From Lamellibrachia satsuma (lineage: Eukaryota > Annelida > Polychaeta > Sabellida > Siboglinidae): DNA of 64,000 nucleotides. The position numbers and the translations under genes were made by a program. Location of the stretch: NCBI GenBank assembly GCA_033239005.1, contig BSQZ01000001.1:33526688-33590687 (forward strand), in the 5' to 3' direction. The notes beneath the pieces are model-generated. The model ran no database searches. It was not told the DNA's origin and worked only from the letters and a program-made list of their open reading frames with translations. This document shows positions 157-57,026 of this stretch, one piece after another; within the stretch, counting starts at the first letter, position 1; each line of letters begins with the position of its first letter.

Positions 157-207
157 GTTTTCAAAGTTGAGACCCAAAAACGATCAGAGCATCCGTGAGT
201 ATTTGAG
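157..207 (+). CDS. Possible internal exon of an unidentified gene
   Basis: A pyrimidine-rich acceptor (ttttacag) precedes 51 nt that stay open as FSKLRPKNDQSIREYLR (the first G and last two bases belong to split codons), and a donor (GAG|gtaacc) follows. I do not recognise the peptide. The next feature is an array whose unit repeats the exon end and donor, a pattern seen at proven exons elsewhere in this window, which raises belief in the exon. No partner exon on the plus strand was found downstream, and the minus-strand gene WDR19 approaches from the right, so it would have to be a separate or nested gene. Low confidence. Confidence 0.3.
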
Positions 208-862
208 GTAACCACATATAACCAATGCATTACTTATTTGTTATTTTTATATTTGTATTTGTATATGAGGTAACCACATATAACCAATGCATTACTTATT
301 TGTTATTTTTATATTTGTATTTGTATATGAGGTAACCACATATAACCAATGCATTACTTATTTGTTATTTTTATATTTGAATTTGTATATGAGGTAACCA
401 CATATAACCAATGCATTACTTATTTGTTATTTTTATATTTGAATTTGTATATGAGGTAACCACATATAACCAATGCATTACTTATTTGTTATTTTTATAT
501 TTGTATTTGTATATGAGGTAACCACATATAACCAATGCATTACTTATTTGTTATTTTTATATTTGTATATGAGGTAACCACATATAACCAATGCATTACT
601 TATTTGTTATTTTTATATTTGAATTTGTATATGAGGTAACCACATATAACCAATGCATTACTTATTTGTTATTTTTATATTTGTATTTGTATATGAGGTA
701 ACCACATATAACCAATGCATTACTTATTTGTTATTTTTATATTTGTATTTGTATATGAGGTAACCACATATAACCAATGCATTACTTATTTGTTATTTTT
801 ATATTTGAATTTGTATTTGAGGTAACCACATATAACCAATGCATTACTTATTTGTTATTTTT
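204..862. repeat. 62-bp minisatellite starting at a donor site
   Basis: About 10-11 direct copies of a unit near 62 bp. Each begins with tgaggtaaccacatataacc, continues through an AT-rich part and ends with tatttgtat. Variants differ by single bases (tttgaattt or tttgtattt); one copy lacks seven bases. The first copy begins at the donor of the putative exon 157-207, and the last copy has the same TTTGAG|gtaacc context as that exon, so each unit carries a potential 5' splice site. Confidence 0.9.
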
Positions 863-1787
863 CCATTTAACTGTTTTCTTGCCTATGTTATGTGGAATAC
901 AAGTGGTGTCAATATTCTAAAATTAGAAATCACTGCTGTTTCTCTGTTCCATTTTTTTGGAGTTTAATGTGATTAAAATGCATATTGGGTACTTTCTCCT
1001 TTAAACACGGACACTCAATGTTTCATTTAAAAGTATACATACATAGCAGCAGTCTACAATAAGGAACACATTTTTTCTCAATTACATCACATGTCCTTTT
1101 AATATCTGCAATTTGGTTCTTGCTGAAACAAATATTCTTGTTGGGGGAGCACTTACTTAACTACCATATTTCATCACTGACATTCCGTTTTTCTGCGTTA
1201 TTTTCCATTTCTTTAAAATGTTATATGGGGGTTTATATATCAAATGAAAATACTTACATATTACATTATATAGTTGTTTTATTTTAAATTAGAAACTCGA
1301 GTAACAAGACAACATGTAATTTACGGGTTCTGATTGATATCTTGGAGATACCTGATCGAACACATACCTCGATATCATAAAAACACCATAAAATAGTATC
1401 CAATTGTAATTTAGTATAACACACAACAGCCAATATTAATCCAATATACATTTGTGCAAATTTAAAATGCAGAGATTCTCTGTCACGGATGTTCCTCTTA
1501 ATTTTCAATTTCAATAGAAAAACTATTATGTGACTGTCTTACATGTTTTTATGTATTGACGTAAATACCTCTGGTAGTCAGCTGTTACATATACACTATA
1601 TGTCACCTTTCTATGCTACCAAAGTACATAAATCTATTGCTTTCCTTTTTTAAAGGTGAATGCTACAAGTCGAAAGTTGCTTAGGAACTTAGTATTCCTA
1701 AGGTAAAATGTAATGCTTAACAATACAGACAGAATACTAGTGATACAGATTATACTAGTTGAGGTAAGTATAATCCATGAATATAAA
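863..1787. other. AT-rich stretch without recognised features
   Basis: No coding exon, repeat array or RNA gene could be supported on either strand. Short open frames here have low-complexity composition and no splice context. It is probably intronic or intergenic. Confidence 0.5.
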
Positions 1788-2394
1788 TCACAAGTTTTCA
1801 TTGTTGGAGGCGAGGCTAGCGCTTGAGAAACTTGTGGTGAGCAGTGACGAACTTCTCACAAAGACCTTCCTGCAGGTTGTGTCCTCCAGTTGCTTGTGAT
1901 GCACGAATCTAATGAAGCTCCTGCTTTTCTTCATGGCCTTCTGATGGAATGACAGGTCCACCATAAGATGGTGTGGCTTAACAGCCTCATGCAGCCAGCT
2001 CCACAGTGGTGTCGGTGTCTGAAGAGACATGAGGCCTAACTCTCTTCGACCATCTCCTCAGCGCTGGAGTTGCCACTGAAGGCCTCATACAGCCAGCTCC
2101 ACAGTGGTGTCAGTGTCTGAAGAGACATGAAGCCTACCTCTCTTCGACCATCTCCTCGGCGCTGGAGTTGCCGCTGAAGGCGAAGATGGAGCCGGTACTG
2201 GGACTACACAAGCTCATCACTAGCCAGTCAGCTCCTCGAGGGTGACTGCAGGCTGGCCATCCATTTGCCTCCGCTCGTTCATCTTCACCAGCTTCTTCTT
2301 GTCGTGGGCCCGTTGACTCTGCACCTTCTGAAGACTGAGCTGGTATTGTTTCTGGGCTGCCAAGTCAGTCTTCTTATTCTCCGTGTGCATCCTC
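1788..2394 (-). pseudogene. Unidentified coding-like segment, probably broken
   Basis: Read on the minus strand, an acceptor-like catcctag is followed at 2394 by an open, lysine- and glutamine-rich helical frame (RMHTENKKTDLAAQKQYQLS at its start, then DKKKLVKMNERRQ and a TLEELTG stop near 2235). Further down the same strand, open stretches continue in other frames (GSIFAFSGNSSAEEMVEE; then a frame spanning 2030-1788). The higher GC and CpG content differs from the flanks. A 98-bp direct duplication lies inside. I do not recognise the protein. The frame changes and stops suggest a decayed gene or retrocopy, though unrecognised small introns are possible. Confidence 0.3.
1985..2180. repeat. 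98-bp tandem duplication
   Basis: Two adjacent copies, 1985-2082 and 2083-2180, share the string cctcat-cagccagctccacagtg and the following gacatga and ctcttcgaccatctcctc blocks with only a few substitutions. The duplication lies within the unidentified coding-like segment and would disrupt any frame through it, because 98 is not a multiple of three. Confidence 0.85.
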
Positions 2395-2685: not shown

Positions 2686-5600
2686 CCAGGCAGACTGATC
2701 TCTTCAATCATCACACCATGGCGGTCATAGATCCTCACAATGTGGTCAAACCTGAAACGGAATCTCTCAAGAATAAAGAAACATTACAAACACGTCTAAT
2801 CAATATATATGATGAATTAATTATTATATTTTATTTTCACAAACTATTTAAGAAATTGTATATCTACTGCATGCATAACATCTTTTAATGCATGCATAAC
2901 ATCTTATTGTAATATTGTGTACAACCCAAAGCATGAGCTGTTTATAAGGACTTGCATACATATTCTACCATTATTTTTTTTACAGAATCTGCTTTGTAGA
3001 CAACCATATTAACAATATCAGTGATTTGTACAATGTTCTTGTGGCGATGTTTCACAGCATTGCATAGTTAATGGCAGATCGTTGCAATGTGTGTGTTTGT
3101 AAATAGTATTTTTTAAGAATAGAAATAAAAGGTGACCAATTTGAAGTGACTGTCACCTACCCGGCAGTGGCGATGTAGTTACCCAGGTTCTTCTGCCAGG
3201 CGAACTTGATGGTCCCTTGACCATGGGTCCGCTCTAGTATACTGAACACTCTCTATAAACATACAGTGTATACATACACAATATGGTCCCATGACTGTGG
3301 GTCTGTTCTAGTATACTGAACACTCTCTGTAAACATACAGTGCATACAATGACTATACATATACAACATGGTCCCCCTGACTGTGGGTCCACTCTGTTAT
3401 ACAACACACTCTGTAAACATACAGTGTATACATATACCACGAGGTCCCCTAACCGTGGTTTCTCTCTAGTATACTAAACACCTACTGTAAACATACTGTG
3501 TACACATACACAACATGGTCCCATGACTGTGGGTCTGCTCTAGTATACTAAACACTCTCTGTAATCATACAGTGTATACATATACTTGATGGTCCCCTGA
3601 CCATGGGTCTGCTCTAGTATACAAATCACTTTCTGTAAACATATACATACATATATTATGCATATACATGAATAGCAGACCTGTGGCCGAAGTACTCGGT
3701 ACTCGAGTACATTTTTGAAGTACTCGTACTCATACAAATTATGGTCATGTAATCATACTCGTACTCATGTTCAATGTACTCAGATTTTACGAGTACATTA
3801 TGAGTACATCCGGGTACTTTTTCAATATGATATTGTGAAAATTATTTAATTTGTTATTATCAAATCATTAATAATTACAACAATAATTTCAAAAAGTATG
3901 GTAGCAAATTGTATTGCCTGCATATGAATCAAATTTTTTTATTTTTATGCTTCTGCATACATCTCAGCTGAGTTATATATGTTTTCTAACACAGGATCAT
4001 TAAAAACACTTTTATTATGTAAATTCTATTGCAATAAGCCAATAACCATGATATTAATTGCAATGTAATAGCCCATGATTTGTAATAATTATTATTGTTA
4101 CATTTAGTAGATGTGGTTTCATTTTTACTTGGTATTGAGGAGTTTTCACAAATTCACACCGTGGATCACTAAAGCCACAAAGGCTTCAAGAGGCAGCATC
4201 TTTTGATTCTTATCCCAGTCAGAAACCCCTAGTTCATATCCATAGTTGTACTAGTTCCTAGTCCAGGCCATAATCCTTGTGTTTATTTGATTAAGCCAGG
4301 AAGTCCAGTAAGCTCATAATGAAAGGGTTGTTCATCAGTTAGCAATAAAATGCCTCTGTTGCTCTCACAAGTGACAGTGCTAAGTACTGCTAGATGAGTC
4401 TTCTTCTTCTGAAGTTTGGTGACTCAAGTCAGACAGCATGCACCAGTATTGCTTGGTGCCAATTTCTAGTGTAATTAAAGTAGGAAGGGGGTATTAAGCC
4501 CTGGACATTGGCTGGTGTTAATCCACCCTATTCAGCAAACATTAGTTGTGGACTTGTGGTCACTGCCAGCCACAACATGCCTAACAGTGTTCACTGATTC
4601 ATATATCATATATATTTAATGGTTATATTTCTTTATTTCTTTTCTGTTGTTATGTTGTGCTATGAAATGTATTTTGAAAAGTATTTTCAATTTAAATACA
4701 TTTAACCTATATTTGAATGCATACCCTGAACATTTGCATTTGAATGAGAATTGTACCTTCGAATTGAATGCAACCCCCAGTTTGATCCCAAACATAAAGA
4801 GGTACTCGTACTCAGCTTTGAGTAATGTACTCGTACTCAGCCATCACCAATGTACTCGTACATGTACTTTACACATGAAAATGTACTTGGCCCCAGGTCT
4901 GATGAATAGGAATACTATACGAAAAGCAACGCTTTGGCTTTGGGCTGATTCCACACTCTGCATTTATTAACCTGGGCAAAGTAACCAGTCCTTATATAAT
5001 AACTTGTGTCCATATGTTCTAAGTTTTTTTATAAATATTGTCATATGGGAACACTTCTTTTGATATGTACAAATTTGTCTGTAAAAGTTATATAAATTAA
5101 TCTTTCCTTTTCACTGTTAATTTGTAATGCCTATTTTTTTTAATGTCTCGACACAACAATTAAGCTTTTATTTTCAATGTTTTAACAACCTTCGGTTTTC
5201 TTCTTCAGTAACTGAATTGTGTTTGTCAAAATGTTGACAGTAAATTAACTTCATATATGTGTCATGAAGAAAAGGATTAATCATTCAATTACCAACTTGA
5301 TGAACATATTTTCATGAATTATCAATGCCATTTGAATAGAATTAATCTGGCATGTAATGACGATGTGCAAACCAATAACAGAATGTCCGAAAAACATGTC
5401 TGAAGCAGGTTATAGATGTGTTTGTTTAAATGCTAGGAGTATAGTAAATAAGAAAAACGAATTAAACATTATGGTAGAAGATATTGACCCTCACATAATT
5501 GGTATAACCGAATCATGGGCCAACACAGACATTACAAATGCTGAATTAGGATTGACAGGATACGTAATGTTTAGGATAGATCGAATAGGAAGAAGGGGAG

Positions 5601-12200: not shown

Positions 12201-15200
12201 GTGGAATGCTTACACCGTTGTAAGACCAGCATCCAGCTCTACTGACACGCTCCAGTGGAAGACAAAGGTGGGAATTTAAGTGACCTCTCACTGACCTCTG
12301 AGTCCTGGGATAATTATGTGTGCCCAAGGAATCATTTGTACAGATTCCTTCATCAATGCAAGTCCAAAGACCCAATATTTGTTCAATCGTTGTTTTTGAT
12401 GTGTGGAATTTCTAGTTCTCAGTTATGAAATCACAATTTTTTTATATAATCACAGCTATATTACTAAAGAGGACAAACATTGCACATATTCGTTCGGTTA
12501 TGAAATCACACATATGTTTATAAAGCCTATTACTGCAATATACATAGTTTATAATTAGGACAAAACACCATACATCATTTCTATTTATCAAGGTGTTATG
12601 ATATCTACATTGACTGGTATCAAATATACAAGACGTAGAATCACAAAGACCTTCCTCAATGGCCCGCATCAGTCTTCAACCAACAGAGGTAATGATACAT
12701 GACAGTGCTACCACCTGGTGAGCTAATAACAGCTGTTCCTTTTAGAAGCTGGACTGGGTGGGGATAAGGTGTTGAATTATTATTAATTGAGCGAAGTAGT
12801 CTTTTATTGTAAATATTGGTTTTTTTTTACAGAAAATGAACATGACAGATTTTCCACTGGAGCGTGTAAGAAACTTCAGCATCATTGCCCATGTGGATCA
12901 TGGGAAGAGTACCCTGGCCGACAGACTGCTCGAACTGACAGGTTCAATACAACATTCACTCATAATGTTGATTAATGTCACTCATGGTGATAATTAAGTG
13001 ACAATTCCACTTAATTCCAAGAATAAAAAATACATTTTCTCCAACCAAAGATAATTTTGAGATAATAATGTATTATAATAATCGTAAATGCTATTATGTG
13101 TATGAACATTTTGTGTAGCGTTCCTTTGCTGAGAAGCACACAGCTTTAAATATACTGATGCACCAAATTATGTATTCTATATTAATAAAGATGCATAATT
13201 GAAGTGATATCTTTGACATCATATGAGTGCATTTTATTAATAGTTTAGATACTATTATTTAATTTTATTACTTCAGCTGATACATCGCTATGTACATTTA
13301 ATAACATTTCGTCAACAATCTGTCAACATCTTTAGACTGGAAGGACAACGCTTTAACAAACCTATTTTTTATTCTTCTGTAAAAATTTTTTTATTCTTTT
13401 GATTATAAAATAATTAAGTAAGTATTCCAATTACATTCCATTGTCTGTGTCACAGGAACGATATCCTCAACAAACAAGAATGAGCAGGTTTTAGACAAAC
13501 TTCAGGTGGAGCGGGAGCGTGGGATCACTGTGAAAGCCCAGACAGCGTCTCTTGTCTACGAGTATGAAGACCAAACATACCTGCTCAATCTGATTGACAC
13601 ACCGGTATATAGAAACTATTATCTCTTATCATTTGTACTTACATTATATTAATTCAAAAGTTAAAATGTTGTTTGTCTGGTGGGAATGTCTTCTTTGCGT
13701 TAAAACATAATTCCACAAAATGTCTGAACAAATATTGATATTTGAATAAAGTACATTTATTTTCTATATCTTGAAGAGAAACAAAAGTCATGGGTTTGGG
13801 TCTATGCACCTATAATTGTTACAAAAACGTAACCATTTGCATTTAGAATTAAGAATATCACACCAGTGGTTTACTAAAAAAACCTTGTTGAACACACATC
13901 TTAATTTCATGTGCTGCACTACATTGTTAGATAACCCTACGTCATGAATGTCGAAGTCTACCAAAATTCACTCGCCAAATGAAAATATATTTGTATATAC
14001 CAGTGTCTGAAATTAGCCAAAAAATTAACTGGCCCAGATTTTGTTTTGAACTAGCCCAGTTCTATTTTTAACCAACCCACGTGAGTTTGAACTGGCCCCA
14101 CAAAATGTATAAATTATAAGTATATGTATAGGTGCTGTACAGTGGTGTATGAATTGGGTGCTGTACAGTGGTGTATGCATTGGGTGCTGTACAGTGGTAT
14201 GTGCATTAGGTGCTGTACAGTGGTGTATGAATTGGGTGCTGTACAATGGTGTATGCATTAAATGATTGGCACAGCATTGTAAAACATTTGCACATAATAA
14301 TAACTTATTTTGAATAAAACACTGTAAATGCTTTGTTTATGTAAATAGTTAAAATCAAATAAAACCTAAAAAATTATTATGATCACAATGATAAATAATA
14401 ATAATTTTATATTAAAATAGCTAAAACTCTATATTATCCAAAAGTAGTTCTCAAAAGGTGCATCTTGAGAGCCACCTGGAACTGTCCAACACCTGTGCAT
14501 TGATGCACTATGGAGGGCAGTTGGTTTCTATGCCCATGAATAAGACACATATACTTATTGTGTTTTCTTTGTTTTCCACTGACAGGGACATGTTGATTTC
14601 AACTACGAAGTGTCAAGGTCACTGGCAGCCTGTCAAGGAGTGATTCTATTGGTTGACGCTAATCAGGTAACTTATTATTTATTGCAGCAGAACAGTGTGC
14701 TGTCTATTTATGTCAAGCACCTACAGTTAAGTTCTGCTTTTGTGGGGAACTTCTTCAACAATGCGTGCTGCCCTCTGATAGAAAACAATATACTAAAATG
14801 TAGCCCTATCATAATTCCCCTGTTGAATGGTTCTGTACATCATGGTGAACAATTAGAACAGAACGAATGGCATCCGTTGTTCTCTAATGGTTGGAGATAC
14901 CTGACAAAATATTATCATGTATGATACAGAACTGACACCACAAAATTTGCTGTGGATATTGATAAGAAAATATGTTTTATGGTGATAGGGATGTTAGCAA
15001 TTCAATGATTTAATTATTCATGTTGTTAATGTGAAAACTCCTACCCTAAACCCTGGTATCTAGAATGTTTTGTGCTAAAGTAATTGTGTGTGCATTAGTT
15101 ATGAAGTCAATCAGGCGTCATCTACCATTTCTTGTCTCATTGTCCTAGTGCTCAGTTATATCTTAATCCACACTCATATCTTGTGACTGTCAACAGGGTG

Positions 15201-18200
15201 TACAGCCCCACACTGCTGCCAACTTCTACCTTGTATCTTGGCTGTCCACAGGGTGTGCAGCCCCACACTGTTGCCAACTTCTACCTTGTATCTTGGCTGT
15301 CCACAGGGTGTGCAGCCCCACACTGTTGCCAACTTCTACCTTGTATCTTGGCTGTCCACAGGGTGTGCAGCCCCACACTGTTGCCAACTTCTACCTTGTA
15401 TCTTGGCTGTCCACAGGGTGTGCAGCCCCACACTGTTGCCAACTTCTACCTTGTATCTTGGCTGTCCACAGGGTGTGCAGCCCCACACTGTTGCCAACTT
15501 CTACCTTGTATCTTGGCTGTCCACAGGGTGTGCAGCCCCACACTGTTGCCAACTTCTACCTTGTATCTTGGCTGTCCACAGGGTGTGCAGCCCCATACTG
15601 TTGCCAACTTCTACCTTGTATCTTGGCTGTCCACAGGGTGTGCAGCCCCACACTGTTGCCAACTTCTACCTTGTATCTTGGCTGTCCACAGGGTTTGCAG
15701 GCCCACACTGCTGCCAACTTCTACCTTGTATCTTGGCTGTCCAAGGGGTGTGCAGCCCCACAGTGTTGCCAACCTCTACCTTGTATCTTGGCTGTCCAAG
15801 GGGTTTGCAGCCCCACACTGCTGCCAACTTGTACCTTGTATCTTGGCTGTCCAAGGGGTGTGCAGCCCCACACTGTTGCCAACTTCTACCTTGTATCTTT
15901 GCTGTCCACAGGGTGTGCATCCCACACTGTTGCCAACTTCTACCTTGTATCTTGGCTGTCCACAGGGTGTGCAGCCCCACACTGTTGCCAACTTCTACCT
16001 TGTATCTTGGCTGTCCACAGGGTGTGCATCCCACACTGTTGCCAACTTCTACCTTGTATCTTGGCTGTCCACAGGGTGTGCAACCCCACACTGCTGCCAC
16101 CTTCTACCTTGTATCTTGGCTGTCTACAGGGTGGGCATCCCACACTGTTGCCAACTTCTACCTTGTATTTTGGCTGTCCAAGGGGTGTGCAGCCCCAAAC
16201 TGTTGCCAACTTCTACCTTGTATCTTGGCTGTCCACAGGGTGTGCAGCCCCACACTGTAGCCAACTTCTACCTTGTATCTTGTCTGTCCACAGGGTGTGC
16301 AACCCCACACAGCTGCCACCTTCTACCTTGTATCTTGGCTGTCCACAGGGTGTGCATCCCACACTGTTGCCAACTTCTACCTTGTATCTTGGCTGTCCAA
16401 GGGGTGTGCAGCCCCAAACTGTTGCCAACTTCTACCTTGTATCATGGCTGTCCACAGGGTGTGCAGGCCCAAACTGTTGCCAACTTCTACCTGGCATTTG
16501 AGGCAGAACTCACAATTATTCCTGTCATGAACAAGATAGATCTGAAGGTGGCGAGACCCGACGTTGTGGAGAAACAGATGGCCAACCTGTTTGACTTCCA
16601 GGCTGGGGAAATACTCAGAGTAAGTGTGAGCCTGGGCAGAGATGTGTGCATGCCGCCATGTCTGCATTAGTGTTGTAGGGATCGTAAATTGTTTTCTTAC
16701 TTCAACTGTTTTAGATGTCGTTCTAAGCCATTTCACTATAGTAAACAGATATGAATCATGGTCGTACCATATGTACAATTGTGAAAATGTAATTTTGAAA
16801 GTTTTTTATTTTGAAAAAACTTGTTTTGGGAATTTTCTGATTTTCAATCAAATAATTGCGTTATTTTGAAAGTTTTTTCTGCATTTTGCATATTTTCTTT
16901 TATTTTAACAAATTCCTTGTTTTGACATTGTTGTCATTTTAAAATTGGTCACATTTAGAAACCTTTCCAGACTGTGAAAATGTTCTGTTCCATTTCCAAA
17001 CATGAAACCTGACTCTATCCATTGATTTATGGCAGATCTCAGCCAAGAAAGGTCTGGGAGTAGAAGATGTCTTGAAGGCGGTCATTGAGAAAATCCCTCC
17101 CCCCTCGGGGGATGTCGATGCCCCACTCAAGGCCCTTATCTTTGACTCATGCTATGAGAAGTACCGAGGAGCCATGTGTAATGTAGCAATGAGAGATGGT
17201 TCCATAAAAAAAGGTAAAGTACCGAGGAGCCATGTGTAGTGTAGCAACGAGAGAAGACTCTACAAAGAAAGGTAAATTACCAAGGAGCCATGTGTAATGT
17301 AGCAATGAGAAAAGGCTCTATGAAGAAAGGTAAATTACCAAGGAGCCATGGTAGTGTAGCAACAAGAGATGGCTCTGTGAAAAAAGGTAAAGTACCAAGG
17401 AGCCATGTGTAATGTAGCAACGAGAGATGGCTCTGTGAAGAAAGGTAAAGTACAATAGAGCCATGTGTAGTGTAGCAACGAGAGATGGCTCTGTGAAGAA
17501 AGGTAAAGTACCAAGGAGCCATGTGTAGTGTGGTGTAGTGTATTGTAGTGTATTGTAGTGTAAAGTAATTGGAGACTAATAACGTTGCTTACCCTCCTCC
17601 GCTCCTCAGTATATTCATCCATCTGTTAACAACTTTAACATTGTATACTGATCTTAGACTTCTCCACCTTTGGTTCTGATGCGCTGCTGAGCCTCAGTGC
17701 ATTGTAGGATGTCTGGCATTGGTTCGTTATAAAACAGTAATGTTGTTGTAGGTCAGAGGATCATGTCTGGTTTGTTGTAGGTCATAGGATCATGTCTGGT
17801 TTGTTGTAAGTCATAGGATCATGTCTGGTTTGTTGTAGGTCATAGGATCATGTATGTGGTTTGTTGTAGGTCAGAGGATCGAGTCTGGTTTGTTGTAGGT
17901 CAGAGGATCATGTATGTGGTTTGTTGTAGGCCAGAGGATCATGTATGTGGTTTGTTGTAGGTCAGAGGATCATGTCTGTGCACAGTAAGAAGACCTACGA
18001 GGTGCAGGAGGTGGGCATCATGTATCCTAATGAAGTACCTACTGATGTCTTGTAAGTGGCTCACAAATATCATTTCATTACTTTGAACAGTTTTATATCT
18101 AGTTTATATGAATAATTTTTAGTTACCTTTTATTTTGTGTAAAATGCATCAAGGTTTCAAGGAAACTACACTATATAAAATAAGTGTATTATTAATTTTA

Positions 18201-21200
18201 TTATTTCTCATTCAAATGACATATGTGCACTTCCACAAGACGGCAACATAATGAGGACAAATGGTGTCTCTGTAATTTACACAACTACAGCACCATAGCA
18301 GCCACAACCAATAACAACAGAACGAGGACAAATGGTGTCTCTGTAATTTCCACAACTACAGCACCATAGCAGCCACAACCAATAACAACAGAACGAGGAC
18401 AAATGGTGTCTCTGTAACTTACACAACTACAGCACCATAGCAGCCACAGCCAATAACAACAGAACGAGGACAAATGGTGTCTCTGTAACTTACACAACTA
18501 CAGCACCATAGCAGCCACAGCCAGTAATAACAGAACGAGGACAAATGGTGTCTCTGTAACTTACACAACTACAGCACCATAGCAGCCACAGCCAATAACA
18601 ACAGAACGAGGACAAATGGTGTCTCTGTAACTTACACAACTACAGCACCATAGCAGCCACAGCCAATAACAACAGAACGAGGACAAATGGTGTCTCTGTA
18701 ACTTACACAACTTATAAGGTAATTTAATCGAATAGATCTTTCAACATAAAGGACTTTTCTTTCTGACCAAATTGAATCTGTGTTTATTGTAGATTAGCAG
18801 GACATGTAGGATACTTGTATGCCAACCTGAAGAGTACAGAAGAGGCACAGATAGGAGACACCCTCTGCAGCCCTAAGCACCCCGTTGATCCCCTGCCAGG
18901 GTTCAAACCTGCTAGAGCAATGGTGGGTAGGGCACTGAGAGTGATAGTTTAAGTGACATTTAAGATATTAAAATTTTATGATGTGTACTTGATTGAATGC
19001 TGAGCTTTTATCTGTGAATCATGCTTAGATGTACAACACACAGTGTTTAATAATGCATGGAAATAATTATTTTCAATGCTACCATTGTAGTGTTTTCTAA
19101 AATGGAAGCCACATCTCGCGGAAATATGATATTGTTCCCCACAAATCGGTGAAATGTTTCTATGGTAACATATCAGAAAGTCCAACTTCTGTAAACAGAC
19201 CTGTTGTGCTGTTAGGTGTTTGCTGGTATCTTCCCAATGGATCAGTCGGAGTTCCCAGGTCTCAAGTCAGCCCTCGACAAACTGCTGCTCAATGACTCTA
19301 GTGTCAACGTCAATGTCGATAGCAGGTCAGTATTATGGACCCGGGTCAGTGTAGTGGACCCGGGTCAGTGTAGTGGACCCAGGTCAGTGTAGTGGACCCG
19401 GGTCAGTGTAGTGGACCCGGGTCAGTGTAGCGGACCCGGGTCAGTGTAGCGGACCCGGGTCAGTGTAGCGGACCCGGGTCAGTGTAGCGGACCCGGGTCA
19501 GTGTAGCGGACCCGGGTCAGTGTAGCGGACCCGGTCAGTGTAGCGGACCCGGGTCAGTGTAGCGGACCCGGGTCAGTGTAGCGGACCCGGGTCAGTAGCG
19601 GACCCGGGTCAGTGTAGCGGACCCGGTCAGTGTAGCGGACCCGGTCAGTGTAGCGGACCCGGGTCAGTGTAGCGGACCCGGGTCAGTGTAGCGGACCGGG
19701 TCAGTGTAGCGGACCCGGGTCAGTGTAGCGGACCCGGTCAGTGTGGCGGACCCGGGTCAGTGTAGCGGACCCGGGTCAGTGTAGCGGACCCGGGTCAGTG
19801 TAGCGGACCCGGGTCAGTGAAGCGGACCCGGGTCAGTGTAGCGGACCCGGTCAGTGTAGTGGACCCGGGTCAGTGTAGTGGACCCGGGTCAGTGTAGTGG
19901 ACCCGGGTCAGTGTAGTGGATCCGGGTCAGTGTAGTGGACCCGGGTCAGTGTAGTGGACTCAATTCGACTTTTTTATCTTATTTCAGACATATTTCACGA
20001 AAAGTGTAATCCATCTAGTAGCTATTGCAACATCTAATCCATCTAATAGCTATTACAACATTTAATCCATCTAGTAGCTATTACAACATCTAATCCATCT
20101 AGTAGCTATTACAACATGCTAGCTTCTTTGTACATGTTGTTTTGTTTTACTATGCTATTATTTTTGCCTGGATCCAGTCAAAAATAAAGGGGAAAAACTC
20201 AAACCTGATTCACTATGGGCTAGATGAATTGACAAGCATTTTTATGATTCTCTTTTGAAATAAAATATGGAGAAATGGCAACAAACCAGATTTTAAGCAC
20301 ATGCTTTGTTGATTGCTGTGTAATCATCAGTTTGCTTATTTTCCACTGCCACTATTTGCCACTGCCACTATTTGCCACTGCTTGTGAACATACTTTTTTC
20401 ATGGATTTGATGCAACTTGATTTTATGATTTATTTATTTAGAAATGGTGTTGACCTCTTCAGTCAGTCACTAAGAGTAACATGGAAGATGATTATGTTAT
20501 CTAGATGTTATTATTATCGACATGGAAAGTGATCTTTTTATTTATGTGATCTTATATTCTTTTGTTACTTGTAGCGCCGCCCTAGGCCAGGGCTGGAGGT
20601 TGGGCTTTCTGGGTCTGTTGCACATGGACGTATTTAGTCAACGCCTGGAACAAGAGTTTGATGCGTCAGTCATCATTACAACACCCAATGTACCTTACAA
20701 AGGTAACCATTACAACACATGTGCGTTACAAAGGTAAACCTCTTCAGCACCCAATGTATCTTACAAAGGTAACAATTACAACACCGACCATGCATTACAG
20801 GTGTAAACATTTACAACACATACTGTGTATTACGGTTGTAAACAATTACAACATATGTTGTTCCTTACGAATGTAAACAATTACATCACCCACTGTATCT
20901 TACAAAGGTAAACCATTACAGCACCCAATGTGTCTTACACAAGTAAACCATTACAACACCCAATGTGCCTCACAAAGGTAAGTCATTACAACACCCAATG
21001 TGTCTTACAAAGGTAAACCATTACAGCACCCAATGCATGCAAAGATGACACCATTTCCACACATCTCTGGCAGAAGAGTCAATGCTGTTGAATGTGGACA
21101 CAGCCAACAATGGTTATTTTTTTAACCATACACTTGTTTGCAGTAAAACTGTGTTAAACAGCATTCCAATGTTTATCACTGCTGTTACATTGTATGCTTC

Positions 21201-31150: not shown

Positions 31151-31189
31151 GGCAACTGTTGAAATAAACATGCAGTGTAAACCATAGGT

Positions 31190-31345
31190 AAAACAGGGAA
31201 ACATGAACAGTTGGCAGTTGTAGGAAACATGAACAGTTAGCAGTTGTAAGAAACATGAACAGTTGGCAGTTGTAGGAAACATGAACAGTTAGCAGTTGTA
31301 GGAAACATGAACAGTTAGCAGTTGTAGGAAACATGAACTTTTCAA
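31190..31345. repeat. ~26-bp array upstream of the Ig gene acceptor
   Basis: Five or six units of gaacagttggcagttgtaggaaacat. On the minus strand the unit (catgtttcctacaactgcc) resembles the true acceptor and exon start (catgtttatttcaacag|TTGCCATGG), so it may be another junction-derived array, though the match is looser than in GUF1. Confidence 0.75.
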
Positions 31346-39163: not shown

Positions 39164-39218
<55 letters not shown>

Positions 39219-45200: not shown

Positions 45201-48200
45201 TAAAAATGGGTGTTTTAGACAAACAAGATAAACATCATTAGGAACTGCCATTAATAGTTAATATAACTCAACATATTCATTGATAATCAATACATCAGTA
45301 CAAGTATTTACTTGAAGATTTTACTAGAATATTTGAGGTATGAAACTAGAAGACACCTGCCTTCCAAATAAATCTGACTGTATCACTGTTGGCTTCACAT
45401 GGATGTTGCTTGTCAAGAACTCTAAACTCTTCAGTGGCCATCAGCTGCTTCTTGTCAACTTTGCCTGGAAGGAAACGACCATTAATAAGCCAATTAATGT
45501 CGGCAGTATCAAATAGTTTTGCCTATTACCAAATTCAAAACTAACTGTCACCCACAGACAATAGTCAATAGTCGTGTCATCATTTAACAGTGTCTGTAAG
45601 GTTAATGAGACTATAAGGGAACGGAATCTCATAGAATGGTGCAAAACGTGCAAAATATAACTGAGCAATCTATGTTGCTTTTGTGAGCACAATACCTTTG
45701 ATAGTTAATCAACCTGACTCTTTAAGTCACTTCTATATTGTACAAGAACAAGGCTTGTTTAGACAGTAGGTGCAAACTTAAAAACTTCCATTCTTACCAA
45801 ATGTTATGAAATAGTTGTGGAAACTGGTGTGTGGTGTTCCATTTCTTTAGAACAAAAATGTTTAACTATTTCAGGTTGACCACAGATCTTACACTAAGAC
45901 CGCAGATCTTACGCCAAGACCGCAGATCTTACACTAAGACCACAGATCTTACACTAAGACTGCACATCTTACACTAAGACCACAGATCTTACACTAAGAC
46001 TGCACATCTTACACTAAGACCACAGATCTTACACTAAGACCGCAGATCTTACGCCAAGACCGCAGATCTTACACTAAGACCACAGATCTTACACTAAGAC
46101 TGCACATCTTACACTAAGACCACAGATCTTACACTAAGACTGCACATCTTACACTAAGACCACAGATCTTACACTAAGACCACAGACAAATCCTACCATG
46201 TGTAGTCATTGGCAGTGTCTCCCGTATGACAACGTCATCGGGGTAGTAGTAGGTCGGCAGGTGGCCAGTCATCAGTTGCTCTATCTCTGATCGTACAGTC
46301 ATGTGGATCTCTGTGACATCCTCCTGTCCACACAAAGGAGAGCTGCTGGGTTTTGAGTCCCTCAAGGCATCAGGAGATTTTCCAAGATCATCCTCCAATC
46401 CACACAGAGGAGAGCTGTTGGGTGTTGAACACCGCAAGGGATCAGGACATTTCCCGAGATCATCCACACTCACAATGAGACAAAGCCTCTTATTGACAGT
46501 GTCATAGATGGCTGCTGCTTGCTTCACAACGTTACAGCAAGTTGCAATCTGAAACAAACAATGGGCATATTTTTTTACTTTTTCAAGTGAACGATGCTCC
46601 AAGTCCATTTCAGTCTTCCTAAATCTGAATCTGTGTGCACGTATAATTTTATTTTACAAAAGATGTTTAATGTTCATTAATTTATACAGCACCAAAATCT
46701 ATACAATATGATGTTGTACACAGTAAAAAAATAACATGGTGACATTATTATCGAATAAAAGAATGGATTAAAATGAATGGAATTAATAACTTAGTTGTAT
46801 ACCATATTAAAATAAAATGAATCTTTAATTTGTTCTTAGAAACATGAACATATTTAACACTTCATAGTCTACATATCTTAGGGTAATGCATTCCAAAGTT
46901 TTGGTATTGCGACTTTGAATGCGAGATCAACCAGTCTTGCACTTTGGCCTAGGCACATCAAGTGTTAACACATCATGGGATCTCAGTCCATAGTGTGTAT
47001 TTCTGATGGTGAACATAAGACACACCTGCTCCAGTTCTCGTAGGTTGAGTCTCTTGCCGTTACGTTTTATCTGCTCATCCTGGCGTCCGTGGTACATGAT
47101 CTGACCGCACGAGTCTCTCTCGACCACATCCCCAGAGTTCCTGAACACCACTCCGTCAGTCTTCGTGTCATTGTCAATCCAACACACTCTCTCAGTGCCG
47201 CCTGTGCACAGTGTCAACAGTGTCAATAGTATCAACAGTGTCAACAATATAAACAGTGTCAACAATGTCAACAATGTCAGCAGTATCAACAATGTCAACA
47301 GTGTCAATAATGTCAACAGTGCCAACAATATCAACAGTGTTATGTAGGCATATCATCAACACTCCCTCCTCAGTTAATTGAGCCCATAATAAATCAGGTT
47401 TGTTGATGTTCAAGTCTGTAGTGTGTGAATAGATTAAGTGATATGTGCAGAGAGGCTAAATAATCAAAAGAATTGACTTCGATCATGAGATCCAGTAACT
47501 TGTGAAGGTGTGCATTTTGACATTTTTTTGCCAAATTTAAGTTTGTCCAATGATTTTACAAAACCAAAAATTACTTTGTACAAACAAGCTAGCATGTTAT
47601 AGTCGATACTAAGTTGGTTTAATTTTTCGTGAAAATTGTTTATTGTAGACAGACTTTTTAACGAACAGCATTATTTAGGAGCATTCAAAATACAAAATAA
47701 TTTGATGAGAGGCAGAAATAAAACTGTAAATTCAAGTCTACAGCATGATGATAACTGACTTCCAAAACTCAACTTACCACTGGGATAACATTTTATTTTT
47801 GGATTCAAATAAATTCTGCTCCTGTTTGATTATCAGAATAACGTATAAAGCAGCACTTGCTTTACAAATTTCCATAACATTTTGTAAGTATGTTATCACT
47901 ACTCATCAGTAATTTAATTTTTTTTCAACTGTAACTGTTGGCACAATCACACACAATTTCTAGATTTTCATAAAAGCATCTGTAAGTACTTTGATGTGAT
48001 GATGACAAAGTGTAACAAAGTGACAAGCATAGTACCTATCCATAATACACCATGCTGAGTTTCCTCTCCATTTTCACCTCGTATTTCCAACAGAGTGCCA
48101 TCCAACACTTGACCAAGTGGAACATCCATTCTGTCTGAGCTGAAAGACAGAAACAAACATGCAGTGTATGATGAAAGTGTTGCATCTGATAATTTAGCAG

Positions 48201-51200: not shown

Positions 51201-53396
51201 ACACGATCAACTTGTTTTAGATGGAGTGAGGACAACAGCAATTCTTGACCTCCCACTTGACCAATCTCGGGGCAGAAACCCTCCAGTTTCTTCTTCATAT
51301 TCTGTGTTTGTAAAACACAACAACAATATATAAAAAAGACTAAAAATGAAGAGAAATAATTAACAATTTAAGCCTTATTTTGTGCAACTGGTAACTAATT
51401 AGTTATCAGAGTGGCTAGAGAGATTGCATGGTGATGCTAATGGCCTAACTGAGGCATATGGCTTCATATCATCTTCATAAATTTCCAGGCTGAAACATCA
51501 TACCAACAGTCAAAACTTATTATTTTAATTCACATAGCAATTGCAGTATGGGTGTATGCTTTGGTAGGTGAAATGGCATATGGGTGAAGAGATCAAACTC
51601 GCTTTGAGCAACGATTGCAGGGGTGGCATAAACTGAATGCTTTGCTCTGTTTTTACTCACTGAGACCAAGTCTGGGTGAACAAGTAGGAGTCTTATATGG
51701 AGCTGACGGATGAGGTAATGTAGTCGGGAGACAGGAATGGCTGCATCAATGCTGATGAACGCCGACTCTGACAGCAGAACTCTGAGAAATACGCAACAGT
51801 CAATGTCACTGTAGGATTTTCATTAGCTTCACCTAAAGATACAATTCTTAGTTTAAATTATAATTTCTTGTAGACTGTAAAAACAGTCAAGAAAAGCTTA
51901 TAAAATGTAAAACATAATATATTTAGCCAAAAATCTTATTCCAATTACATAATTTATAAGTTCTTTACAGTGTGTATACAATTTGGAATATCTGGCAAAC
52001 CATTTCTGCCTCTAAAAATTTGGTTTATATATAACAAATCGGCTCGTGCTCCAGACCTGTAAGCACAATTGTACAGCTATTGGTTCGGCACTCTTTCCGC
52101 TTTGCATATGCTTATCCTGGCAGCATATAATGTGTGAATGCAGACGGTCAATAAATCATTAATAAACCAGGCGCTAAACATCGGAATATTATCTGATATG
52201 CTCAAATTTTACAAAGTAATGATCATTATCATTGATCATTATTTGAAAGCATAGCTAGGTCTCTTCTTTTCGTCCACCAATCTCAAAAGTATTAGAGACA
52301 TCTTTAGTTTAGGCAGGCAGTTATATCATCGTGCTTCAATGATTGACAATGAAACTGGTTTATACATAACTGCACTTGAACGTCCATATAATTATTCAGT
52401 TAGACAATAATGATATTCTAATATGACAATAAACACATCCTGCTGCTACAGTAGGTTCTCAGTGCGCATGCACATACAAAGTGCCGAACCACTAGCCATT
52501 TTGCACTACGTCTGGGTCCGGACCTATAGCAACAGCCTATATATAATACCCCACTATATCCAGCACTGTTCCTATGAGTTAAATAGCTTCCCCACATCAT
52601 ACCCAAGAAGTGCTGCAGCAGTGTTGATGTCAGGCTGGAGAATGAGACCAATTACTTCATGGTCACACATATGATCCTCAATGAAGCGCTCAACCTAAAA
52701 TGTGTTACAAATTTCAATGCTATTCCATTTATTCACAGAAAGTGGGACATGATATTTTATTTAGGTGTCAACTTTGTACATAAACTGAACTTGCTTGTAT
52801 TTAGCATTGTAGTGTTTTCTTTTAGTTTTATATAGCATTTACACAAATATTGGGTTATATAATATTTACACATGTGGAAGTTTACAGCACCACCACCAAA
52901 CACATATTATACAGAATGGACAGAGTGGACAGACCAAATGTAGCATTAAGAGATTGATAATAGTAGTGACCGGACATGTCAGTCAGTCAGTTCCCGAGAC
53001 AATTACACTGTCAGAGAAGTAGCTATAACTGAAATGCTACAGTCATATTTTATTTTATTAAGCACAATAATGTATCCATGCATGCGTACCAAAATTCACA
53101 TACCTTAACTTTGTGTGGTCACCACTTGATGGTTTGACCACAAGTTTGATGGTCTGACCACTAGAAGAATTTATTGTGATCAATACAAGATTGTCAACAT
53201 CGTGCAACTCACTAAGTAGAACTTAGTACAACTAACTTACCACTGTAGCTTTGGTGAGAAGTGTACCATACACCATACGATCCTTTGTGTTGCCACCATC
53301 ATAAATAATAGCAACATTCTTTGTGAATTCTTCGGCAGCTTTCCTAAAAAGTCTATGTAAGGTTGGTTGTTCCTCTTGTGTCAAAGTCCTAGACAT
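35439..53396 (-). CDS. AASDH: AASDH, beta-alanine-activating enzyme (adenylation-carrier-PQQ protein)
   Basis: NRPS-like cytosolic enzyme that adenylates an amino acid (beta-alanine in mammals) and loads it on a carrier domain; its physiological target is unsettled. Exons, 5' to 3' on the minus strand: 53396-53241, 52694-52603, 51781-51661, 51301-51090, 50693-50504, 50057-49828, 48139-48036, 47201-47026, 46548-46197, 45464-45361, 44944-43992, 43412-43261, 41431-41268, 37888-37766, 36891-36760, 36185-35439. They total 4008 nt, 1335 residues plus stop. Motifs: STSGTTGNPK (~168), YGITEV (~314), GRQDEQIKRNGKR (~407), catalytic Lys in THGKVD (~546), carrier LGGNSLSALQ with Ser ~604, then a low-complexity linker (~640-860) and the PQQ propeller (~880-1335: IGSHSHSF, FGSHDHCLYALD, ATLGGSLTAV, LGKPLFSSPV, GSHDNHIYCIDI). 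Human is 1098 residues by memory; the linker accounts for most of the excess. The intron after 45361 needs a GC donor. Confidence 0.95.
36530..36630. repeat. ~13-bp repeat in AASDH intron
   Basis: Several copies of gtgtgtatgacag. No relation to an exon boundary is visible. Confidence 0.75.
37245..37765. repeat. 66-bp in-frame array of decoy donors after AASDH exon 37888-37766
   Basis: On the minus strand each unit repeats the last ~60 bases of the exon and its donor: ..TGTATACAGCCACACTGGG, GGGCTCTCTCACAGCTGTG, TCCCCA|gtgagtacac. Six full units and two shorter ones follow the real donor at 37765. Units are 66 bp and the coding frame stays open across them, each encoding a block like VSTQPHCMYTVTLGGSLTVV plus SP. 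A donor lies at the end of each unit, so alternative donor use would insert multiples of 22 residues in a PQQ blade. Confidence 0.93.
38060..38600. repeat. Minisatellite made of an amplified LINE 3' end
   Basis: Units of acaagacttaacaagatagc, catccaaaactacaagttac, ccaatcta, with shorter variants lacking one half. The complement matches the end of the CR1/L2-like LINE (aacttgttgtttgggatggc, taccttgttaaaccttgtta). The array adjoins the 3' end of LINE copy 2, so it grew from the 3' terminal region and tail repeat of that copy. Confidence 0.88.
38601..40560 (-). mobile_element. CR1/L2-like LINE copy 2, internally deleted, with 5' esterase-like remnant
   Basis: From 5' (40560) to 3' (38601): a remnant reading MRDGLHLTGKGAAVLG near 40470-40400, which resembles the SGNH-esterase-like region of L2/CR1 first proteins; the endonuclease (RLSARS, GVVYHSPNIRQ, MGD..FNHGRIQWESL); a jump from FLTQHVLEP straight to ISTPLAKVFNLSLEEGVV of the RT, equal to loss of roughly 850 bp; then NYRPVSLTSVICK, YLDFQKAFDKVPHQRLLLKL and GIGNDVINLIEK. 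At 39166-39213 a (TA)n run replaces the FADD region. The C-terminal part is also shortened. It sits in the intron between AASDH exons 41431-41268 and 37888-37766. Confidence 0.9.
39166..39213. repeat. (TA)n microsatellite inside LINE copy 2
   Basis: About 24 TA dinucleotides. In LINE copy 1 the same place reads ttaatatatatataaatga (coding YIND), so the microsatellite expanded from that seed. The ~100 bp that follow in copy 1, including the FADD codons, are missing here. Confidence 0.9.
40555..40775. repeat. 31-bp array at the 5' end of LINE copy 2
   Basis: About seven units of gaacaaaagtattacttact, attacaaatct. It begins where recognisable LINE sequence ends, so it marks or grew from the 5' junction. 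Confidence 0.88.
41700..42960. other. AASDH intron, no supported feature
   Basis: It contains a GTAA/GTGA run at 41948-41972 and an isolated plus-strand frame, MRRVLGQVGQITFEKDLDLQ onward to a stop near 42563, that looks protein-like but has no recognised family or splice context. It may be a transposase scrap. Confidence 0.35.
43015..43175. repeat. 30-bp array in AASDH intron
   Basis: Five units of aataacagttatgttactgg, aggtcaatac. It lies about 90 bp past the donor of exon 43412-43261. No exon similarity was seen. Confidence 0.85.
43560..43645. repeat. 10-bp tacttacttg array beside a LINE 3' end
   Basis: Seven or eight copies of tacttacttg. It adjoins the 3' side of the antisense LINE fragment at 43690-43991 and may be that element's expanded tail repeat. 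Confidence 0.85.
43690..43988 (-). mobile_element. C-terminal fragment of a third LINE family
   Basis: A minus-strand frame contains YTKFFKLAESDRTRGHLFKI, LSRKLVRHNLFSHRVIDQWK and SFPENCASVKNVEFK, the pattern that ends CR1/L2-type polyproteins (RGH..FFS.RV...WN.LP..). It differs from copies 1-4 in sequence, so it is another family or a much older copy. Its upstream end abuts the donor of AASDH exon 44944-43992. Confidence 0.65.
45870..46190. repeat. 20-bp array beside an AASDH donor
   Basis: About 16 copies of cagatcttacactaagacca with two variants (ccgcagatcttacgcc and tgcacatctt) arranged as a higher-order pattern that itself repeats (45900-46020 resembles 46040-46160). It starts about 10 bp beyond the donor of exon 46548-46197, so it derives from the intron start rather than the exon. 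Confidence 0.9.
46295..46470 (-). repeat. In-exon tandem duplication in AASDH
   Basis: Within exon 46548-46197 the protein contains two consecutive 24-residue blocks of the form DDLGKxPDxLRxSxPxSSPL plus CGxED. They have no counterpart in the human protein as I recall it. The duplication is 72 bp, keeps the frame, and sits in the adenylation domain's C-terminal subdomain, before the A10 lysine. It would form a surface loop. Confidence 0.85.
47204..47345. repeat. 9/18-bp repeat abutting an AASDH acceptor
   Basis: About 15 copies of gtcaacaat or gtcaacagt. It adjoins the acceptor of exon 47201-47026 (on the minus strand ..actgttgacactgtgcacag|GC), so it probably grew from the intron's last bases. 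Confidence 0.85.
48794..49589. mobile_element. TA-flanked MITE in AASDH intron
   Basis: Inverted repeats begin ccgtgttgttccctata at 48796 and end with tatagggaacaacacgg at 49587, with looser pairing for about ten bases more. Both ends are flanked by TA (48794-48795 and 49588-49589), as in Tc1/mariner-type insertions. The 0.79-kb interior is richer in GC and CpG than the host intron and has no transposase frame. The open frame on the minus strand at 49655-49404 runs through one terminus and is not a gene. Confidence 0.75.
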
Positions 53397-53399
53397 CAT

Positions 53400-54165
53400 T
53401 GACACTGGCTTCTCCTCTTGTGTCAAAGTCTTAGACATCACTGAAACTGGCTTCTCCTTGTGTCAAAGTCTTAGATATCACTAACACTGGCTTCTTCTTG
53501 TGTCAAAGTCCTAGACATCACTAACACTGACTTCTTCTCTTGTGTCAAAGTCTTAGACATCACTGAAACTGACTTCTCCTTGTGTCAAAGTCTTAGATAT
53601 CACTAACACTGGCTTCTTCTTGTATCAAAGTCCTAGACATCACTAACACTGGCTTCTTCTCTTGTGTCAAAGTCCTAGATATCACTAACACTGGCTTCTT
53701 CTTGTGTCAAAGCCCTAGACATCGCTGAAACTGGCTTCTTCTTGTGTCAAAGTCTTAGACATCACTAACACTGGCTTCTTCTTGTGTCAAAGCCGTAGAC
53801 ATCGCTAACACTGGCTTCTTCTCTTGTGTCAAAGTCCTAGACATCACTAACACTGGCTTCTTCTTGTGTCAAAGTATTAGACATCACTACCACTGGCTTC
53901 TTCTCTTGTGTCAAAGTCCCAGACATCACTAACACTGGCTTCTTCTCTTGTGTCAAAGTCCTAGACATCACTAACACTGGCTTCTTCTTGTGTCAAAGTC
54001 CTAGACATCACTAACACTGGCTTCGTCTTGTGTCAAAGCCCTAGACATTGCTAACACTGGCTTCTTCTCATGTTAAAGATCTAGACATCACTAACACTGG
54101 CTTCTTCTCGTGTCAAAGTCCTAGACCTAGACGTCACTTACACTGGCTTCTCATCTTCTCTTGTG
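53400..54165. repeat. ~40-bp array of the AASDH start-codon region
   Basis: About 19 units. On the minus strand the unit is gatgtctaggactttgacac, aagaagaagccagtgttagt, with versions carrying a three-base insertion. The first coding bases of AASDH are ATGTCTAGGACTTTGACACA, AGAGGAAC, so each unit repeats the initiator codon and the first eight or so codons. Whether the array is transcribed as 5' UTR is not known. If it is, it contains many upstream ATGs. Confidence 0.9.
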
Positions 54166-54169
54166 TCAC

Positions 54170-54863
54170 TGACAGTCTACTGTCCCGTGCAAGTCACCAG
54201 TCTATTTAGTAAAAAAAATTAGGTTGACTGTAGGTTCACATAATTTTTAACTGGCTTTAATTATCAGATGCACCCTATTTATCGCTCACGTGCGTAAACG
54301 CAGTTACCATAGCATAAACTAGTGACAGGTTAGCGACATCCAATGCTTCGGTCATGACTTAAGGGATAGTTCATGTACATTTGTGTCTCTGTATCATTAT
54401 TACCACGTAATGCGCAAAACTGTTATTAACATCACAAACAGTGAACACAGTCCCTTCTCCGCATAAATGATAGGCATAGCAGAAACCAAATACACAGCGA
54501 CAACTGTAATATCGGCACGGAACTTTATTTAGAATTGTGTTTGAAACTTTGAAAAGGAAAATTGTGCTAGCCATTCCATTTTGCTGAAATTTAACTTGTT
54601 GTGATATAGGAGATCGATGTGATATTTATGCTCGCATAACGACTTAACAATATTAAGAAAATTTCGTTTTATTTCAATGCAGACGTATGTAAGAGTGAGC
54701 GATAATCGATGTCAGCTAATACACTGCATTGACCGGCGGCATAATTACATAAATGTTGTGCTGTTTTGGTTAGCTAAAGGCAAAAACTAAATACTTTGGT
54801 AGCAGTTAGATAACCGGGTAACACCCATCACCGGGTAACACCCATCAGTGGCATCACCGAACA
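54170..54863. promoter_or_regulatory. Probable bidirectional promoter of AASDH and ANAPC10
   Basis: About 690 bp of unique sequence separate the AASDH start-region array (minus) from the ANAPC10 start codon (plus). CpG dinucleotides are more frequent here (54270-54310 and 54670-54740) than in the introns. No core element can be assigned with certainty. The head-to-head order is the main argument. Confidence 0.4.
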
Positions 54864-57026
54864 ATGAGTTTGATGAAACTGACGGGAGGAGAGGATGTCG
54901 ATCCCTACCAGGGGGAGAAAGAGGGATATTTGAGGGAAGTGGGACACCATGCTGTGTGGTCCCTATCTTCCTGCAAGCCAGGTAATTGTACAAATTTCTC
55001 CAAACAAAGTCATACATGTCTAAGTACTAAGAGGAGACCAAATAGAAGTGTTTAAAATAGTGAACGGTTATGAGGATGTTGATAGGAATATGTCCTTCAA
55101 ACTTAAAGAAGGCAGTAGAACCAGAGGACACAAAACAGCATTAGTTAAGGAGCAGTGTAGGTTGGACATGAGAATGTAATCTTTCTCACATAGGGTAATA
55201 AATGAATAGAACAAACTGCCAAATTATTGTGTTAATGCTAGTATTGTGAATATGTTTTAAAATAGAATTGACATCTGATAAGGGCGGGCTAAACATAGAT
55301 GAGAAAATTGTTGGATTCTTGATAAGCCAATGGTTTCCTTGTCCACTTGGCATCCAGAACTTGTTGTTTGGGATGGTAATCTTGTTAAATCTTGTTAAAT
55401 ATCAACCCTACCAATTCAGGCAGTGGACTACTGATTTGAGGTACCGCCTACTTATTTTATACGTCAATCATACCCATAAGTGTCAATTAAGGTCTAAACA
55501 TGAAAAAGGGGTTTTAATAATTTTTTCATCGTATTTACGCGTAGCTATTTTGTCATGCATTTCTCGTTCACAGTGAACATGTGAAATTGCTTGAGACCAA
55601 AGAAATAAAAAATTAAATGTGCCTAGAACAGTTTCGTGTGCAACAACTATATAAAGTTTTGTTTGATTTTATAAATAAAAAAGACTTTTCTTCAAAAAAC
55701 TGGCAAAGCAGGACTAACGGAGCAGTATTTCCCATCCAAAAGCTCTAATGTTGAGTGACTTTGTTGACACTTATGCATACCACTTTGAATATCAACGTAT
55801 ATATTTATTATCATGTTCCTAATCATATGTAATCAATCTTTGCTGAGTCGTTTTGATGTGTCAACTATGAAATTCAACTTGATTATCTAAGAACGTATGT
55901 ATTTCTGATTACTCTAGGCTTCAGTGTGGATCAGTTAATTGATGGTTCCCTGGACACCTACTGGCAGTCTGATGTATTTCTGATTACTCTAGGCTTTGGT
56001 GTGGATCAGTTAATTGATGGTTCCCTGGACACCTACTGGCAGTCTGATGGTCCTCAGCCCCACCTCATCAACATCCAATTCCGCAGAAAGACAACCATCA
56101 CAGATATCTGTCTGTACGCGGACTACAAGGCCGATGAGAGCTACACTCCAAGCAGGCACGTGTCCTATTTGATGGAACTATCCAGTAAAGGGGGAACTAA
56201 TGAATAAGGCTTCAGGGTCTGTAATACAAAAATAATAAGTTGTTTCATTTGCAACCATAGAGTTTGAATAATACACGTAAGTACATGTTAAGATAGTTAT
56301 AAAACATTAAATACAGTTAAATAATACAGCATTGAATTGTATATAAATAAATAAATTATCATGTAAATAAGGAAAATTAGGGCCAGACCTGTATAGTACA
56401 CCTGTAATACAATTTTACATAAACATACTTAGTTCTTAGGCTCTTAGCTGGATTATTTTGACTATGTGAAAAATCAGAAATGTAATTAGGCATGTATCCC
56501 TAATAATTTTTTTATATTTATAAAATTATAAGATTAAAAAAATATTCTCTAATCCCTGGTATGTCAATAATGATCCTAATAACAAGACATTCAATTAAAA
56601 ATATTGCGATGTAGTAAACTAGTAGTTAGTGATATCATTTCTAATTGACCTGATATATTCAGTTGAAATGTGGGTACGAGTTATCATGATTAATAAGACC
56701 AACAATTACATTTGATAGCATCCATCTAATCAGTGATTTCTTGCAGGATCTCCATCCGTACTGGCAACCACTTCAATGATCTGACAGAGATCGAGCTCGT
56801 CGATCTGTCAGAACCGTCTGGGTGGATCGTGATCCCACTGAAAGACATACATGAACGGCCAATACGCACATTTATGATCCAGATCACTGTGGTGTCGAAC
56901 CATCAGAATGGACGAGATACTCACATGCGACAGATCAAGATCCACTCTCCAGTGAGAGACATTACCACGGCTAAGAGGCCGGTATTCACAAGTATCGACA
57001 TGGCACAGTTCGGTTCTGTTAGGTAG
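54864..57026 (+). CDS. ANAPC10: ANAPC10 (APC10/DOC1), anaphase-promoting complex subunit
   Basis: DOC-domain subunit of the APC/C ubiquitin ligase that helps bind D-box substrates together with Cdc20/Cdh1. Exons 54864-54981, 55993-56155 and 56747-57026 give 186 residues; human is 185. Conserved blocks: [60 protein letters not shown] and [20 protein letters not shown]. The C-terminal tail ends Val-Arg where human has Ile-Arg, the 'IR' tail that docks on APC3. The acceptor of exon 2 and its first 54 or so bases are duplicated 75 bp upstream; the canonical FGVDQ comes from the second copy. Intron 2 starts with gc (AGCAG|gcacgt), a GC-AG intron required by the frame. Intron 1 contains LINE copy 3. 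Confidence 0.96.
55019..55403 (+). mobile_element. CR1/L2-like LINE copy 3, 5'-truncated
   Basis: It corresponds to 7905-8284 of copy 1: aagaggagaccaaatagaag at the left end and aacttgttgtttgggatgg, then cttgttaaatcttgttaaat, at the right. Several stops and a small deletion (gacatctgataag for gacagatatttgataag) show decay. Inserted in ANAPC10 intron 1 in the sense direction. Confidence 0.9.
55898..56048 (+). repeat. 75-bp tandem duplication of the ANAPC10 exon 2 acceptor
   Basis: Copy 1 (to 55972) and copy 2 (55973 on) both read tgtatttctgattactctag, then GCTTyrGTGTGGATCAGTTA, ATTGATGGTTCCCTGGACAC, CTACTGGCAGTCTGA. Only two bases differ. Both acceptors (55917 and 55992) are intact, and the region between them is open and in frame, so use of the first acceptor would add 25 residues containing a second copy of [16 protein letters not shown]. 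Confidence 0.95.

Follow-up and report, generated by a model that had tools for sequence, protein, structure and literature searches.

In this work, we have analysed tandem arrays at the exon–intron junctions of a 64-kb stretch of DNA, hereafter the window, which carries sequences of the genes WDR19, GUF1, AASDH and ANAPC10. Tandem Repeats Finder (TRF) locates 43 merged arrays with a period of at least 9 in the window, occupying 24% of its length, and exon–intron junctions of all four genes are spanned by seven arrays of 2–24 copies each. The position of these and of further arrays in other genes suggests that splicing hides junction-spanning duplications from selection.

Junction arrays and gene models

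The junctions were taken from gene models obtained by spliced protein-to-genome alignment. GUF1, on the plus strand, has four junction-spanning arrays: 55 bp × 24 at the exon-6 acceptor (15177..16492; exon start 16458, 35 bp exonic), 58 bp × 6.4 at the exon-7 donor (17159..17531; exon end 17213, 55 bp exonic), 29 bp × 8 at the exon-8 acceptor (17743..17980; exon start 17961, 20 bp exonic) and 35 bp × 10 at the exon-11 donor (20674..21035; exon end 20702, 29 bp exonic). On the minus strand, the exon-2 acceptor of WDR19 is spanned by a 74 bp × 5.7 array (3209..3643; exon start 3252) with 44 bp in the exon and 391 bp in the intron, and the donor of AASDH exon 37888-37766 by a 66 bp × 8 array (37279..37822; 57 bp exonic). 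The ANAPC10 acceptor (plus strand, exon start 55993) lies in an array of two 75-bp copies that are 97% identical (55897..56049), with a 3-bp microhomology (ATG) at the break. Extension of the exon by one unit would be in frame and open both in the AASDH and in the ANAPC10 array. An eighth array, 19 bp × 34 (19326..19959, plus strand), has as its first base that of the GUF1 exon-10 donor GT, although TRF places its own start at 19337; the GT is kept in 34/34 copies. All eight had been described in the initial annotation, and the gene models and TRF bear them out.

The GUF1 model comprises 17 exons and 662 aa, and aligns without gaps to P0001, a 662-aa GUF1 of a relative that is 92% identical, comes from a 2,185-base contig and is presumably of transcript origin. 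The alignment is gapless across all four spanning arrays, and P0001 has none of the extra copies. The AASDH exons were compiled manually from the alignments of four homologues; its start codon is putative, and some exon edges distant from the arrays are uncertain. For AASDH, the tubeworm Ridgeia gives the best match (50%, covering 64% of the query), and Branchiostoma records reach 32–36%; in the GUF1 tree the window gene and P0001 fall within a mollusc/annelid/nemertean clade (support 100/99), and the WDR19 model of the window is identical to a Lamellibrachia satsuma record at 871/871 residues. From these comparisons, the host is a siboglinid annelid and not a cephalochordate; very probably it is a Lamellibrachia, L. 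satsuma itself or a species very near to it.

Overlap, polarity and exonic depletion

The overlap between arrays and junctions was compared with chance in 12 genes with 284 junctions, namely the window genes, the remainder of WDR19, TBCK and seven CCT/HSPD1 chaperonin genes. The chaperonin loci used were the more compact ones, a choice that biases against finding arrays, and two other multi-exon loci and the single-frame matches C9 and C80 were left out; the last WDR19 exon and the doubtful terminal exons of CCT4, CCT3, CCT5, CCT8 and CCT1 were dropped by hand before counting. In the null, a single unit stood for each array and was re-placed at random within the gene concerned. Purely exonic placements were rejected, so that tolerance by splicing is already built into the null. 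A calibration for GC content used a rate fitted on the intronic arrays.

In all 12 genes, the window included, 18 of the 121 non-exonic arrays span a junction where 7.93 were expected (P = 0.0006), or 10.08 after GC calibration (P = 0.008). Intronic arrays have a GC content of 0.40 against a background of 0.365 and exon edges are also GC-richer, which explains why the calibration removes part of the excess. In the window, 7 of 29 arrays are spanning against 2.88 expected (P = 0.014; GC-calibrated 3.55, P = 0.042); given the 24% cover some overlaps are expected there, and these P values are optimistic because the window was picked for the very pattern noticed in it. The counts outside the window are a fairer test, and there 11 of 92 arrays are spanning where 5.05 would be expected (P = 0.010), or 6.53 with GC calibration (P = 0.056). 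Arrays lying within 20 bp of a junction without spanning it are also in excess, both outside the window (11 against 4.43, P = 0.005) and in all genes (16 against 6.6). When the two classes are taken together, 34 arrays are found against 14.6 expected in all genes (GC-calibrated 16.9) and 22 against 9.5 outside the window (GC-calibrated 11.2).

The window shows the spanning excess, and so do the neighbouring WDR19 and TBCK; most of the signal comes from this array-rich neighbourhood. The seven chaperonin genes alone show no excess of spanning arrays (2 against 1.55), and their nearby arrays are again 2 against 1.55.

The spanning arrays show an intron-side polarity. For 18/18 of them, the gene models leave less than one unit in the exon, so that the modelled authentic site belongs to the copy closest to the exon and everything beyond it is intron. 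Ten of these arrays lie at donors, seven at acceptors and one at both, its unit containing a whole exon. The units measure 23–97 bp and are a multiple of 3 in just 4 of the 18, and hence the copies need not be translated. If the site of the neighbouring copy were used, the frame would shift in 13 of the 17 scored arrays (the whole-exon array was not scored) and a stop would be met in one; in the other three, in AASDH, ANAPC10 and TBCK, the neighbouring copy is in frame and open.

Purely exonic arrays are depleted: one was seen against a summed expectation of 13.4. The expectations in the four sets were 4.69, 3.56, 1.64 and 3.52 (P = 0.042, 0.023, 0.18 and 0.022), the depletion in the TBCK set alone being non-significant. 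The sole case is a coding repeat in AASDH exon 9 (46317..46465, minus strand; 72 bp × 2.1, in frame), which is not a junction array. Its two copies match at 83% and lie in a variable linker of AASDH; the repeat is absent from the nine homologues aligned. An intron at 46473-46324, present in some spliced alignments, was rejected because the stretch is this in-frame 24-codon coding repeat.

Two arrays of WDR19 outside the window deserve description. At L010:7750-8326 an array of 92 bp × 6 lies at the acceptor of the exon that starts at joined coordinate 77800. The L. satsuma record P0358 matches our model for 871 residues, ends ...GGYYDK and stops at residue 873; the array copy at joined 78188 encodes QWSEAAMLYEKGGYYDK followed by a stop, whereas the authentic copy goes on with AAAVYIRS. 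To judge from this coincidence, P0358 seems to follow an acceptor copy in the interior of the array, through either a prediction error or real splicing. A record that stops precisely at the point at which an array copy would close the frame is a warning for annotation. At L012:3350-3643 three tandem copies of 97 bp each contain a whole 67-bp WDR19 exon together with its splice sites, which would leave just ~30 bp for each intron between them.

Other arrays of the window are related to junctions less directly. The intronic array at 26113..26946 (plus strand, 30 bp × 28), initially placed at 26100 and read as donor-derived, starts 18 bp past the GUF1 exon-14 donor and its unit contains no donor. 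The first 10 bases after this donor (region 26096-26142) are GTCTCAATGA, and their reverse complement recurs within the neighbouring 30-bp unit, maybe by chance. The same origin had been proposed for the array near 46196 (45878..46186, minus strand, 20 bp × 15), which starts 11 bp past the AASDH exon-9 donor; its derivation from that donor would need a small deletion and is uncertain. A 9 bp × 15 array (47208..47340, minus strand) ends 7 bp ahead of the AASDH exon-8 acceptor, with no AG in its unit. The array reported at the AASDH start codon is real (53370..54126, minus strand, 40 bp × 19) and covers the presumed start, which it overlaps by 27 bp, and upstream sequence; the start codon itself is only predicted, and the array does not lie at a junction. 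A putative exon at 157-207, on the plus strand, lies inside intron 3 of the minus-strand WDR19 and has no support. In 25 arrays away from junctions, donor- or acceptor-like units were in no clear excess (mean background percentile 0.37 for donors and 0.57 for acceptors).

Pfam searches of ten translated stretches gave only retroelement, immunoglobulin and sub-threshold hints. Candidate retroelement pieces at 5336-8179 (plus strand) and 39576-40094 (minus strand) have endonuclease and reverse-transcriptase matches below the Pfam cut-offs, and a third piece (63180-63896, minus strand) was assigned by eye from a translation resembling that of 5336-8179. An open frame in the GUF1–AASDH interval (30452-31288, minus strand) has an immunoglobulin-domain match, also below the cut-off.

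Proposed survival of duplications at junctions

We propose that short tandem duplications, with units of about 20–100 bp, would be frequent in this Lamellibrachia region, born probably by slippage or microhomology-mediated duplication, and would then expand as minisatellites. Selection would mostly purge duplications confined to exons. A duplication across a junction would persist, as the outermost site (the 5'-most donor or the 3'-most acceptor), if correctly used in the RNA, would still yield a normal mRNA, and further copies beyond it would end up in the intron. This tolerance had been put forward in the initial annotation, and it is supported by the exon holding less than one unit in every spanning array, by the exonic depletion and by the absence of a preference for in-frame unit lengths. 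We give a probability of roughly 0.6 to splicing tolerance as the explanation for the survival of junction-spanning arrays.

Several observations weigh against this explanation. The spanning (18 against 7.9) and near (16 against 6.6) counts both exceed a null that already includes tolerance, which therefore is not the whole story; tolerance by itself leaves unexplained a further ~1.8- to 2.4-fold clustering of arrays on junctions or up to 20 bp away from them. In addition, the count of polarity leans partly on homology-based models, which are prone to call extra copies intronic, and the in-frame, open neighbouring copies of AASDH, ANAPC10 and TBCK could, by their sequence, be expressed. A junction-directed cause of the roughly two-fold excess is suggested, although not proved.

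Such a cause could be that the splice consensus, the composition of exon edges or a process linked to transcription favours duplication at or just inside junctions. We regard this as a tentative explanation, which might account for the combined spanning and near counts, in all genes and outside the window, and for the crowding of arrays in the first 20 bp of introns. Some arrays start on a splice site or at most 5 bp from it (GUF1 19326; WDR19 joined 107841, 86726, 100758, 106568 and 62043), and at some breaks there are short stretches that match exon or donor sequence (ATG in ANAPC10, ACAAG and ATGTC in two arrays of WDR19); these matches, as read by eye, may point to microhomology. In the chaperonin genes, arrays of at least three copies are spanning or near in 5 cases against 1.75 expected (P = 0.024), but without the copy-number cut the figures are 4 against 3.1, and small differences in the edges change them to 5 against 3.1 (P = 0.19). 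The loss of strength of the outside-window spanning excess after GC calibration also argues against seeding, as does the result for the window plus WDR19 under a stricter, partly circular GC-matched null (13 against 9.25, P = 0.10), and WDR19 and TBCK sit in the repeat-rich neighbourhood of the window itself. The repeated formation of arrays had been taken initially as a sign of a general process; it is a weaker sign than was assumed there, since uniform seeding together with exon intolerance would already give about 8 of the 18 arrays, or 10 with the GC correction. It is possible but doubtful that splice junctions act as mutational hot spots at which minisatellites are born, by a mechanism common to animals as distant as annelids and cephalochordates. 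If true, the arrays would be a general and junction-directed source both of intron growth and of decoy splice sites.

It is rather unlikely that density alone is responsible, with junction overlaps arising by accident in a minisatellite-rich region. Minisatellites cover 27% of the left flank, 24% of the window and 20% of the right flank, against 1–29% (median 4%) in the seven CCT/HSPD1 stretches elsewhere, and about 8–10 of the 18 spanning arrays would be expected anyway; the counts in all genes, discovery window included, nevertheless exceed expectation under both the uniform and the GC-calibrated null.

We consider it very improbable that the copies are functional, either in the regulation of splicing, as decoy or reserve sites, or as a route to new introns. 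The GT is intact in 58/58 copies of four donor arrays, the authentic ones included, but selection on it was rejected as an explanation, since this conservation is unexceptional: 29/57, 4/34, 21/65 and 6/18 of the dinucleotides in the four arrays are equally high. In four acceptor arrays the AG is intact in just 34/40 copies. The L. satsuma WDR19 record breaks off exactly at the stop that would follow from splicing to an interior acceptor copy, and could speak for the use of such copies, but it may be a mere error of gene prediction.

An assembly artefact is scarcely credible, even if the window by itself does not decide the matter and ANAPC10 has just two near-identical copies, as the copies of the other junction arrays differ by substitutions or indels, and P0358, from a 0.69-Mb contig of an apparently separate assembly, ends in array-copy and not authentic-exon residues, so that such a copy must exist in that assembly also.

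Comparison with known systems

In potato, intron gain in RdRp through a tandem duplication across a boundary has been described, with the Rogers model as cited there (PMC4974935, in the part consulted). The tubeworm arrays are similar to that case in that the duplication crosses an intron–exon boundary and copies the splice signals; unlike it, they mostly have more than two copies, the extra copies seem to lie in existing introns and no new intron is shown. For annelids, no report of junction-spanning arrays was found among the literature matches listed, and the Ridgeia genome paper, in which TRF was run, does not mention such arrays in the passages seen.

The closest likeness is with the 'mirage' minisatellites of amphioxus, described in Adh3 and in the globins BflGb6 and BflGb9. 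In the sections consulted of that report (PMC3087553), the repeats lie over intron–exon boundaries, both 5' and 3', and many copies carry splice signals, with apparently regular mRNA; the units measure 10–72 bp in Adh3 and 150–160 bp in the globins, and length and somatic instability are reported for the Adh3 mirages. Similarly, the tubeworm units contain the exon–intron boundary, in seven arrays within the window and 11 outside it, and boundaries of both types are hit. Their sizes fall within the mirage span of 10–160 bp, units of 74, 75, 92 and 97 bp lying between the two published groups. As regards splicing despite the copies, P0001, from another species and probably transcript-derived, has none of them, and P0358 ends at an interior copy.

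The likeness to mirages drawn in the initial annotation is therefore apt in structure, although the host is a siboglinid annelid and the spanning arrays were here counted against a null over 284 junctions, with a test of polarity and frame. The tubeworm arrays extend amphioxus-type mirages to another phylum, and attach a rate and polarity to what had been reported as an oddity of amphioxus. They also offer a source of intron growth, and a natural setting in which to test which of many near-identical sites the spliceosome selects.

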